From contig JAQXIX010000027.1 of the NCBI GenBank assembly GCA_029008005.1, forward strand, positions 1 to 36,742: 36,742 nt of DNA. The letters run 5' to 3'. Both the position numbers and the translations under genes were made by a program. Source of the stretch: Bacillota bacterium. Its GTDB lineage: Bacteria; Bacillota; Clostridia; Peptostreptococcales; Anaerovoracaceae. How positions within the stretch are numbered: position 1 is the first letter of the stretch; the number at the start of each line of letters is the position of its first letter. The notes beneath the pieces are model-generated. The model was not told the origin of the DNA, did not search any database, and was given only the letters and a program-made list of their open reading frames with translations. This document shows, one piece after another, positions 32,024 through 33,856 of this stretch.

Positions 32024-32509
32024 TTAATTTGAATTAAGTACTCTGTCTTTTTCCAGAATCTTCTCTGCGTTTTCCTTTCTTTCAGCTGCCAGCGTCTCAT
32101 AGAGATCACTGTCGTTTACAGCTATCATCTGAGCGGCCAGTATCGCCGCATTAGCTGCTCCGTCGATTGCAACTGTCGCAACAGGAATTCCGGAAGGCAT
32201 CTGAACCGTTGAAAGAAGTGCATCCATGCCGTCAAGGGCTGACGATTTAACAGGAACTCCGATTACAGGCAGCAGTGTATTTGCTGCAATCGCTCCTGCC
32301 AGATGAGCTGCTTTGCCTGCCAGACAAATAATCGCTCCGAAACCGTTAGCCTTTGCATTTACTGCGAAGTTTTTAGCTTCTTCAGGCGTTCTGTGAGCCG
32401 AATAAATATGAACTTCATATGGTATCTGGTATTTCTTCAGACGTTCGATTGCCTTTTCTGCAATTGGCATATCACTGTCTGATCCCATTATAATTCCTAC
32501 TTTCTGCAT
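32024..32509 (-). CDS. purE: N5-carboxyaminoimidazole ribonucleotide mutase (class I PurE)
   Basis: The 161-aa protein carries GIIMGSDSDMPIAEKA (residues 6-21) and VHIYSAHRTPEEA with the catalytic His, then GAIICLAGKAAHLAG. It carries out step 6 to CAIR. No purK follows, as in many Clostridia; either purK is elsewhere or high CO2 makes it unnecessary. It is the first gene after the ZTP riboswitch, with GAGGAG before the ATG. Confidence 0.96.
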   Translation of the reverse strand: MQKVGIIMGSDSDMPIAEKAIERLKKYQIPYEVHIYSAHRTPEEAKNFAVNAKANGFGAIICLAGKAAHLAGAIAANTLLPVIGVPVKSSALDGMDALLSTVQMPSGIPVATVAIDGAANAAILAAQMIAVNDSDLYETLAAERKENAEKILEKDRVLNSN

Positions 32510-32529
32510 GAATATCTCCTCTTCTATTT

Positions 32530-32565
32530 AAAACAAAAGACAGAAACTCCGTAAAAAAGGAGTTT
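32530..32565 (-). terminator. Riboswitch-controlled intrinsic terminator before purE
   Basis: On the minus strand AAACTCC and GGAGTTT pair around an 8-nt loop (32565-32544) and are followed by the T-rich tail CTGTCTTTTGTTTT. It directly abuts the 3' conserved segment of the aptamer, so aptamer folding and terminator formation can compete. Ligand would then permit transcription of purE and the genes that follow. Confidence 0.85.
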
Positions 32566-32637
32566 ACTGCCCAGACGAACGACATAGTCACCACTGTCAC
32601 TCCCCTGCGGTGCTCCGCATCTCGTCAGTCATGACAG
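32566..32637 (-). promoter_or_regulatory. ZTP (pfl) riboswitch aptamer controlling the purine operon
   Basis: The minus strand shows the ZTP aptamer elements in order: P1 strand CTGTCA (32637-32632), conserved TGACTGACG, P2 GCGG/CCGC (32618-32615 with 32610-32607), conserved GGGGAG (32605-32600), P1 partner TGACAG (32599-32594), and, after a linker, the diagnostic 3' block CGTCTGGGCAG (32577-32567). ZTP and AICAR accumulate when 10-formyl-THF is short. The riboswitch switches on purine and one-carbon genes, which matches the genes downstream. Confidence 0.93.
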
Positions 32638-32658
32638 TTGATATTAAGATATTTCAAT

Positions 32659-32685
32659 TTTATACCACTTCAGATTGTATGTAAA
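32659..32685 (-). promoter_or_regulatory. Purine operon promoter (extended -10)
   Basis: TGGTATAAA (-10 TATAAA at 32664-32659 with an upstream TG) lies about 20 nt before the aptamer. A TTTACA at 32685-32680 is at the short spacing of 15 nt, so the extended -10 element is likely to compensate. It sits between the terminator of the upstream non-coding RNA and the riboswitch. Confidence 0.6.
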
Positions 32686-32697
32686 GTATATAAACCC

Positions 32698-32749
32698 AAA
32701 AAACGATAATGACCACTTGCTTCCTCACCGGACTCAAGCGGTCATTATC
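32698..32749 (-). terminator. Intrinsic terminator of the non-coding RNA
   Basis: A 15-bp stem (GATAATGACCGCTTG with CAAGTGGTCATTATC, one G-U wobble, 15-nt loop) is followed on the minus strand by G and six T. It insulates the upstream RNA from the purine operon promoter. Confidence 0.92.
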
Positions 32750-32994
32750 TCTCCGAATTCAAAACTAACACTTCTGGTGGTCTCACCTCTTTCTCTGCTA
32801 TCGCTCCTCCATTCTTCTCTTTCATACTTATTGCTACTCGCTTCCGTATCTTCCTCACTTCTTGCCGGCAACTTCTTCCTCCGGCTTATTACGGACAGAC
32901 CTTTTCGCACTTTCGAAAGTCCCCATCGGAGCTTCTTGGCTATAACTTCTATTTATTTTTACCTATGGTCCGAGCTTCCTCTTTCCCATCGGCT
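32698..32994 (-). ncRNA. Unidentified ~295-nt structured non-coding RNA
   Basis: The stretch is bounded by a consensus promoter (33001-33029) and a strong intrinsic terminator (32698-32749), and no convincing frame with a ribosome binding site lies in it. The transcript is very purine-rich and has several local helices: ATGG/CCAT enclosing GAG/CTC near the 5' end; GACTTTCG/CGAAA-GTC (about 32921-32899); CCGTA/TACGG enclosing GCCGG/CCGGC (about 32895-32845); and GGTG/CACC (about 32786-32775). GA-rich single strands connect them. It is not RNase P, tmRNA or SRP RNA by their diagnostic motifs, and it is long for 6S RNA. The clostridial raiA RNA class is the candidate I would test first, but I cannot confirm it from memory of the consensus. 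Confidence 0.65.
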
Positions 32995-33000
32995 GATTAT

Positions 33001-33029
33001 AATATAGCACTGTATCGCAATAAAGTCAA
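33001..33029 (-). promoter_or_regulatory. Promoter of the non-coding RNA
   Basis: TTGACT and TATATT (33006-33001) are separated by exactly 17 nt on the minus strand, predicting a start near 32994. It lies about 33 nt after the stop of the ADP-ribosylglycohydrolase gene; no strong terminator separates them, only a weak A/T hairpin around 33045. Confidence 0.8.
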
Positions 33030-33061
33030 TAGTTTTCTGAAAAATTCGTATTTTCTTTTTT

Positions 33062-33856
33062 TTATCTCGTTATACAGTATTCCCTCTCAAACTTTTCCAG
33101 CGTTTCAATTAAATTCTCGTCAAGGAAATCATAAGCTCCGGCACGCAGGCTCTCAGGCACTCCGAAATATGCCTCCGCAATTGTTCCTGCAATCGCCGCT
33201 ATTGTATCACTGTCGCCGCCAAGAGAAACAGCATTTCTTATTGTATCTTCAAATGAATCTGCTTCCAGAAAGGCTTCTATTGCCTGGGGTACCGACCCCT
33301 GACATGAAACATCAAATTCATATGTATCTCTGATGTCGTCAAGACAGAAGTCCATATTATAATATCGATTTTCGATCATATCCGAAATTTCTTTTCGGTC
33401 ACTTCCATGCAAAGCCATAAATGCAGCCTCCGTAACAGCTCGTGCTCCCTTTATTCCTTCCGGGTGATTATGGGTCACAGCCGTTACGGCATCTGACATT
33501 TTCAGTGCTTCTTCAAGGGAATCTGCTGCATATGCGCATGGTCCTACCCTCATAGCGGCTCCATTACCGAAACTATTGTAAGGTTTCGGACAAGCAGAAT
33601 AAATCCACATACGGAACCTTCCGCCGTATCCCGCATTCGGATATCTGTTTCCGAAACTCTGCATACATTCCACTGCCTGTTCACTAAGTTTTTCTATGTT
33701 TTTCCCGCATGTGACTATTGCCTTTGCGATGGCGATACTCATTACTGTATCATCGGTGAAACGAGAGCGATTCGAAAACAGTTCAAAGTCTTTAGTTTTA
33801 ATATTACCAAATTCATATATTGATCCGACTATGTCGCCGATAACAGTTCCTATCAT
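33062..33856 (-). CDS. ADP-ribosylglycohydrolase family protein
   Basis: The 264-aa protein has the DraG/ARH fold motifs: MIGTVIGDIVGSIYEF at the start, SRFTDDTVMSIAIA (FTDDT, first Mg ligands), VTHNHPEGIKGA, and SLGGDSDTIAAIAGTI near the C-terminus (second metal ligands). It removes ADP-ribose from proteins or small molecules in the cytoplasm; the target is unknown and no ADP-ribosyltransferase is nearby. Its ATG overlaps the stop of the surface-protein gene by 4 nt, which is an unusual pairing. Confidence 0.92.
   Translation of the reverse strand: MIGTVIGDIVGSIYEFGNIKTKDFELFSNRSRFTDDTVMSIAIAKAIVTCGKNIEKLSEQAVECMQSFGNRYPNAGYGGRFRMWIYSACPKPYNSFGNGAAMRVGPCAYAADSLEEALKMSDAVTAVTHNHPEGIKGARAVTEAAFMALHGSDRKEISDMIENRYYNMDFCLDDIRDTYEFDVSCQGSVPQAIEAFLEADSFEDTIRNAVSLGGDSDTIAAIAGTIAEAYFGVPESLRAGAYDFLDENLIETLEKFEREYCITR

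Follow-up and report, generated by a model that had tools for sequence, protein, structure and literature searches.

The window analysed here, that is, the whole stretch of 36,742 nucleotides of contig JAQXIX010000027.1 from a Bacillota bacterium of the Anaerovoracaceae, contains a transcription unit on its minus strand between a gene for an ADP-ribosylglycohydrolase (33062-33856; PF03747, E 1.4e-36) and a ZMP/ZTP riboswitch (32562-32642; 62.6 bits, Rfam) that stands in front of purE (PF00731, E 1.2e-61). All of these neighbours had been named in an earlier sequence-only reading of this DNA, and all were verified. From its upstream to its downstream end, the unit comprises the following features:

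33031..33043, minus strand: A/T-rich element TTTTCAGAAAACT immediately upstream of the -35 hexamer, seen in the sequence and common to many relatives.
33001..33029, minus strand: sigma-70-type promoter TTGACT-17-TATATT with an extended -10 (TG), from a sequence scan; the layout recurs in relatives.
32961..32993, minus strand: 5' hairpin GCC-AUGG...CCAU-GGU with inner GAG...CUC, from covariation in 5 window-type sequences.
32952..32960, minus strand: A-rich linker with AAUAAA, from alignments A3 and A4 and the list of leaders.
32794..32951, minus strand: lineage-specific purine-rich domain, aligned with four copies of the genus only (L056, L004, L007 and L008).
32772..32793, minus strand: conserved core GAAAGAGGUGAGACCACCAGAA, a near-complement of the 16S rRNA 3' end, with a hairpin GGUG-AGAC-CACC at 32787-32776.
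32745..32771, minus strand: micro-ORF GUG UUA GUU UUG AAU UCG GAG AGA UAA, reading (M)LVLNSER and a stop, from a frame test over relatives.
32705..32749, minus strand: terminator stem-loop, a 15-bp stem of 32749-32735 with 32719-32705 and a loop of 15.
32698..32703, minus strand: T-run TTTTTT of the terminator, from the sequence.

The promoter has its -35 hexamer TTGACT at 33029-33024 and its -10 hexamer TATATT at 33006-33001 on the minus strand, separated by a 17-nt spacer, with a TG preceding the -10; the promoter scan returned 2 promoter-like sites in a 601-base region vs a mean of 1.0 in shuffled sequence. As for the terminator, none of 200 shuffled arms was equally good in a longer-range arm scan, and the simple terminator scan, which permits loops of 3-8 only, does not list it, its loop being 15. 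With a start that would lie near 32994, the transcript would extend from about 32994 to 32698 and measure about 297 nt, in keeping with the length of about 295 nt claimed earlier. The claim of a stand-alone unit, with a promoter at 33029-33001, a 15-bp terminator and six T on the minus strand, was likewise verified and recurs in relatives. Because of this recurrence the unit is more than a chance arrangement, and that it is a real transcription unit is confirmed as far as comparison of sequences can do so. Automatic promoter picks in relatives were sometimes wrong, as for L026 and L001 (shifted -10), and the terminator pick was wrong for L001. With one pattern, to which the window copy does not conform, the element before the -35 was found in 34 of 56 members, and family promoters often carry TTTTCARAAAA immediately before TTGCAAT-N16/17-TATAAT. 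The sequence abutting the -35 (TTTTCAGAAAA; 33031-33043 in the window, and in the leaders of relatives) is nearly palindromic and widely kept, and could serve as an UP-like element or as the site of a regulator. A TTG-started ORF of 110 aa runs antisense to the whole unit on the plus strand (32675-33007), probably because the purine-rich sense strand leaves few antisense stops.

The unit has no Rfam 15 match in the region 32400-33300, either at gathering thresholds or at E<=10. At the latter threshold, the riboswitch is accompanied in this region by just two weak matches, neither of them within the transcript (SNORD79 over the promoter and tsr24 upstream), and no model of RNase P, tmRNA, SRP RNA, ROOL, OLE or any other Rfam 15 family matches the unit; the absence of RNase P, tmRNA and SRP RNA, first claimed from missing motifs, is thereby borne out. 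The size and the layout of the unit would fit a known class that had fallen below the gathering threshold (raiA, 6S, RNase P, tmRNA or SRP), but the result at E<=10 speaks against it, as do 20 relatives, which at E<=1 gave tRNA as the sole family over its cut-off and, besides tRNAs, three matches far below theirs; a match to SSRC8_2 at the terminator of L023 reached E 0.014 and 23.6 of 72 bits. Moreover, raiA and 6S both lie elsewhere in the same genome, at G000:C30:23849-24015 (RF03072, E 4.6e-36) and G000:C41:14962-15143 (RF00013, E 5.9e-16), respectively, and neither RF03072 nor RF00013 has a match in 32400-33300 at E<=10, for which both were rejected. Like the unit, the raiA motif RNA (ModT) is an independent structured RNA gene of Clostridia, according to the available text of PMC11706538, but the unit lacks a match to its model; 6S RNA is also a small independent RNA gene, but the predicted fold of the window transcript lacks a long helix closing the 5' and 3' ends. 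Hence, the suggestion of raiA made in the sequence-only reading has to be withdrawn, a known class missed in this way has next to no chance of being the answer, and the other option then offered, an RNA not yet described, fits an independent unit with no Rfam match. The family is also not described in the open-access literature searched; the supplementary lists of large structured-RNA surveys lie outside that scope, so an unnamed earlier listing is possible.

Searched as DNA against 49 genomes of the genus, the unit had a match in 9, which was long in G016, and the other matches, the unit's own copy aside, covered only a short block near the 3' end. A block pattern with up to 3 mismatches occurred in 9 of 49 genus genomes (0 with the reversed control), and a similar one, with 2 mismatches allowed, in 30 of 296 family genomes (2 with the reversed control). 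The covariance model R1 found 35 of 297 order genomes (E<=0.01) and a shorter core model, R2, found 14 of 41 genus genomes. At the level of the class, R2 matched 6 of 391 genomes at E<=0.1, its own among them; of the other five (L116-L120), L116 and L118 have the core by eye and L119 resembles coding sequence. At the level of the phylum, it matched 2 of 398 genomes at E<=0.01, its own and one of the same family, and a phylum-wide spread was rejected. Outside the family, core, start codon, short ORF and terminator are seen by eye in G422, G432 and G381 of the same order (E 0.002-0.004), and also in G873, from another family of the class. Named relatives with the unit are Emergencia timonensis, Anaerovorax odorimutans, Bacilliculturomica massiliensis and Clostridium aminobutyricum, all of which we take to be members of the Anaerovoracaceae. 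Thus, stand-alone units occur mainly within the window's own family, with few members in other Clostridia, and their distribution is patchy even within the genus. Some genomes carry two unlike copies (L006 and L010 in G025, L003 and L020 in G015, L052 and L069 in one Emergencia MAG), which differ in leader and micro-ORF. The comparison with relatives proposed earlier therefore finds the unit conserved as a family of stand-alone units, and the window unit apparently belongs to an undescribed clostridial RNA family.

What is conserved in this family is a core of 21-23 nt and not the long 5' domain. The leader ranges from 18 nt (L058 and L100) to about 245 nt (L054), with about 207 nt in the window, and an A-rich linker containing AAUAAA is present in several subtypes ahead of the domain that precedes the core. 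The transcript had been read as containing several nested helices. Its whole fold has z = -4.41 with the terminator and z = -1.75 without it, with 11 of 200 shuffles equally good in the latter case, so that much of the stability of the fold is that of the terminator; the nested helices are therefore weak when judged from the sequence alone, and one of them, the 5' hairpin, is supported by covariation in 5 sequences. Three of the 10 pairs of this hairpin change on both sides, and 95.9% of its cells are paired vs 12-44% in slid controls. An Emergencia-type hairpin just before the core (7 sequences) is paired in 98.4% of cells vs 31-54% in slid controls, with 4 of 9 pairs changed on both sides when counted together with the core hairpin. 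For both hairpins, none of 500 shuffles scored as high in covariation, but the counts of pairs changed on both sides were reached by 43 of 500 shuffles for the window type and by 113 of 500 for the Emergencia type. In these two places, the covariation test that had been called for gives support. One pre-core helix common to all members was considered and rejected, as it is present in some subtypes and not evident in the window copy; pre-core helices stand out from shuffles in 11 of 53 leaders at p<=0.05 and in 25 of 53 at p<=0.2.

A non-coding structured RNA acting in trans would agree with the covarying hairpins that two subtypes have ahead of the core; its core would bind a protein or an RNA other than 16S rRNA, and the ORF pattern described below would be a by-product of constraint on the sequence. 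The terminator arms of some members, which close long domains with loops of 95-207 nt, point the same way, as does an in-frame stop kept in 5 of the 6 members without AUG or GUG. However, the first stop is in frame in 47 of 55 members, at spacers of 15, 18, 21, 24 and 30 nt, and either AUG or GUG may stand as the start codon (17 and 20 of 42 distinct ORFs, respectively), for which we regard an RNA of this kind as unlikely.

The core, with the consensus AGAAAGRGGUGAKWCCRCCAGAA (also given without the first A), is close to the complement of the 16S rRNA 3' end. The perfect 13-mer AGAAAGGAGGUGA is found in none of 56 members, and many different near-misses are found instead. When 33 distinct cores were paired with the 16S tail of G324, a genome of the same order as the window, the energies ranged from -19.8 to -26.6 kcal/mol, with z from -3.0 to -8.1 vs shuffled cores, a control that partly reflects the mere resemblance of the core to a Shine-Dalgarno sequence. 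A 23-base pattern of the 16S tail, allowing up to 2 mismatches, has no match in the window's assembly or in 11 of 12 other genomes. In the predicted window transcript, AGAAAG is 91-97% unpaired and GGUG is paired; across 46 sequences, the core hairpin GGUG/CACC is paired in 98.4% of cells, with no change on both sides. AGG and the start codon are about 14 nt apart, which exceeds the usual distance, and this spacing is an awkward point for any explanation by ribosome engagement.

Directly after the core, the window copy has a micro-ORF of 8 codons, GUG with 7 further codons, followed by UAA. The sequence-only reading had seen no plausible protein here; a conventional one can indeed be rejected, as no minus-strand ORF of at least 60 aa overlaps the unit, but the 8-codon frame at 32771-32745, small and important, was missed. 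Among 55 members, AUG or GUG follows the core in 49 (one base further on in L058), and the first in-frame stop comes 12-32 nt on, with none earlier, in 47. The control frames +1 and +2, which are not fully independent controls in a set of related members, have a stop 12-32 nt on in 4 and 6 members and an earlier stop in 21 and 31, respectively. For this set, loci at the same place were merged and near-identical copies of different genomes were kept; when it was thinned to 34 representatives that share less than 70% identity downstream of the core, the stop was in frame in 30 vs 4 and 5 in the control frames. Four loci had been dropped before the count: L021 (core-like, with 3 mismatches, in coding-like sequence without promoter or stem), L056 (the contig ends at the core), and L064 and L070 (no AUG or GUG at the set place), the last two of which, if included, would give AUG or GUG in 49 of 57 and in-frame stops in 47 of 57. 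The ORFs measure 15, 18, 21, 24 or 30 nt and mostly have 5-10 codons. Three members (L058, L100 and L111) have an indel between the core and the start codon, and in these the frame follows the AUG or GUG. In six members (L005, L009, L132, L020, L103 and L071), GUU or GUA replaces the start codon, and in eight of the 55, Emergencia copies among them, the ORF runs further. Of the earlier description as a non-coding RNA, the independent RNA unit therefore stands, whereas the purely non-coding nature probably does not, given the start codon and the short in-frame ORF in the conserved part.

Start, frame and stop are thus conserved, which is also what would be called for if the micro-ORF made a functional peptide, 5-10 residues long and possibly acting as an N-formylated signal, with the RNA as only its mRNA. 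The peptides include MLVLNSER, MFNEVR, MLTEQK, MQIEQR, MQVEENG and MTSEQVI, among others; Glu is at position 4 in 26 and Arg or Lys is last in 27 of the 42 distinct ORFs, and the two copies of G025 differ (MFNEVR in L006, MFREGQR in L010). Moreover, Glu (47 observed vs 17.7 expected) and Gln (36 vs 11.5) are enriched, so that, together with the Glu at position 4, the peptide may matter. Nevertheless, single codon changes in 29 related pairs comprise 12 synonymous and 40 non-synonymous ones vs 11.3 and 40.7 expected, in a test that is small and whose pairs are not independent; synonymous changes are not in excess, and no purifying selection for a particular peptide is seen. The peptides are also too short for a signal sequence, and six of 55 members lack AUG and GUG, all of which makes a working peptide improbable. 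Also considered, and judged less likely, was a start at the GUG inside the core, from which most members would read M-x-P-P-E, with synonymous variation at the prolines, rather than at the following AUG or GUG. Sequences of the M-x-P-P-E type are ribosome-slowing motifs, and this start would explain both the invariant CC-CC and the members with GUU or GUA. However, the three indel members keep the frame of the downstream start, and no Shine-Dalgarno-like sequence is seen ahead of the GUG in the core.

The stop codon of the window copy (32747-32745) lies inside the 5' arm of the terminator (32749-32735), and a stop in or next to this arm was found in 40 of 55 members by two scans combined. In a short-range scan, the stop overlaps the 5' arm in 26 of 55 members and immediately precedes it in another 3 (29 of 55), and a longer scan of the other 26 added 11 members, the window included, with 0 of 200 shuffled arms equally good. 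In six run-on members, the arm is at the same place though the ORF continues (0-2 of 200 shuffles). A terminator arm at the stop is unsupported in 9 of 55, with none in eight and a weak one in L020 (8 of 200 shuffles equally good). In the long forms, the terminator arms close loops of 69-207 nt.

This coupling of stop and terminator arm is also what would be expected of a ribosome-controlled attenuator, in which translation of the micro-ORF would block the terminator and downstream genes, here the ZTP riboswitch and purE, would be read. The first downstream ORF is on the same strand in 23 of the 33 loci that have one among the 38 loci examined, in a count of mechanical ORFs that includes near-duplicate loci and L064 and L070, and the rli80-hflXr system of Listeria works with a short ORF and a terminator (PMC6310831, available text). 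However, that ORF is on the opposite strand in 10 of 33 loci, and the identity of the downstream gene is not conserved among the relatives at the 38 loci. Furthermore, a promoter-like TTTACA-17-TAAAAT at 32657-32685 separates the unit from the riboswitch, which suggests that purE has its own start. Leader-peptide attenuators of the rli80-hflXr, erm and trp types resemble the unit in having a short ORF near an intrinsic terminator, as far as the available text of PMC6310831 goes, but the unit has no conserved regulated gene, and no control codons were recognised by eye; we consider attenuation very improbable. The placement beside a purine operon, which had been called notable, is not a family trait: relatives adjoin other genes, which by their translations read as coaE, HIT/yqeY-like, hisZ-hisG, truA and DUF1294/parB-like. 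Because neighbours differ between lineages, a role tied to the purine operon, or as a cis element of it, was rejected. An origin from a phage or plasmid was also rejected, as one core pattern, searched for exactly, did not occur in viral_contigs and the window unit matched no plasmid.

Read from these comparisons, the architecture comprises an own promoter, a variable 5' domain and a 16S-complementary core; a start codon then opens a frame of mostly 5-10 codons, which closes in or beside the terminator arm. The peptide is unconserved, while frame, start, stop and 16S complementarity are kept; for this reason, the likeliest function would be ribosome engagement itself, and it is the best candidate because neither selection on the peptide nor a conserved neighbour is seen. 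A transcript that engages initiating ribosomes is accordingly favoured over a purine regulator or a peptide signal, and a stand-alone, micro-mRNA-like RNA gene of an undescribed family acting in this way is our tentative explanation, to which we give slightly less than an even chance. The unpaired AGAAAG of the core would pair first with the terminal CUUUCU of 16S rRNA as a toehold, and the pairing would then spread and open the small GGUG/CACC hairpin that hides part of the Shine-Dalgarno sequence. The 30S subunit could thus initiate on the nearby AUG or GUG, and the ribosome would make a short peptide and stop on the terminator arm. In this way, the transcript, its variable 5' domain being lineage-specific, might occupy, report on or be stabilised by initiating ribosomes, with protection of the RNA by ribosomes, titration and sensing of free 30S as candidate roles. 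A more specific form of this explanation is a class of RNAs that would dock 30S subunits through a deliberately imperfect complement of the 16S tail, via the toehold AGAAAG, the hairpin-hidden GGUG and then UCC/CC, and would park or cycle them on a throw-away micro-ORF with its end in the terminator arm, thereby titrating or sensing free initiating ribosomes; we hold it to be rather unlikely.

Short ORFs with a strong ribosome-binding site are of a known kind. Bacterial minigenes are exemplified by the six-codon minigene in the LEE4 leader of EHEC, in which, according to the available text of PMC8708949, ribosome binding and not the peptide matters, and by the two-codon mg2 of axe-txe. Like the unit, they have a strong Shine-Dalgarno sequence and then a very short ORF, and the window copy, with its core, GUG, 7 codons and UAA, would qualify as a minigene on these features. 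However, these minigenes lie in operon leaders or inside operons, whereas the unit is framed by its own promoter and terminator, and the gene downstream of it is not conserved. In intergenic RNA scans, a short ORF with a ribosome-binding site and a terminator in an independent context forms an sORF category (PMC6429828, available text), which the unit resembles; no matching motif appears in the available text of that paper, the supplements lying outside the comparison. As far as our searches go, what is new is a dispersed family of units that stand alone and centre on an imperfect complement of the 16S tail, described neither in Rfam 15 nor in the literature searched. If the explanation by ribosome engagement is true, independent genes of whose content only a ribosome landing site and a throw-away ORF are conserved would give bacteria a new means of gauging or buffering their capacity for translation, and the presence of the family in named strains makes the idea directly testable. 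Even if the function differs, the RNA gene is recurrent, matches nothing in Rfam 15 and is easily mistaken for an ordinary non-coding RNA.

Some members show further particularities. In L010, L033, L094, L105, L124, L127 and the Emergencia copies, a long 3' domain lies between the terminator arms (loops of about 95-207 nt), and such long 3' domains downstream of the micro-ORF often contain a GAAACUUUAA-like piece. L111 (G381:C3:1800-3900) has a second core-like sequence, GAAGGGAATGAGTCCACCAAAGAAG, just upstream of 988 and ahead of the core, as if the core had been doubled. In L070 (Candidatus Lachnoclostridium stercoravium, contig DWZA01000023.1, around 4567), an exact core lies 64 nt past a good promoter, without AUG or GUG at the usual place, and perhaps represents a different use of the core.
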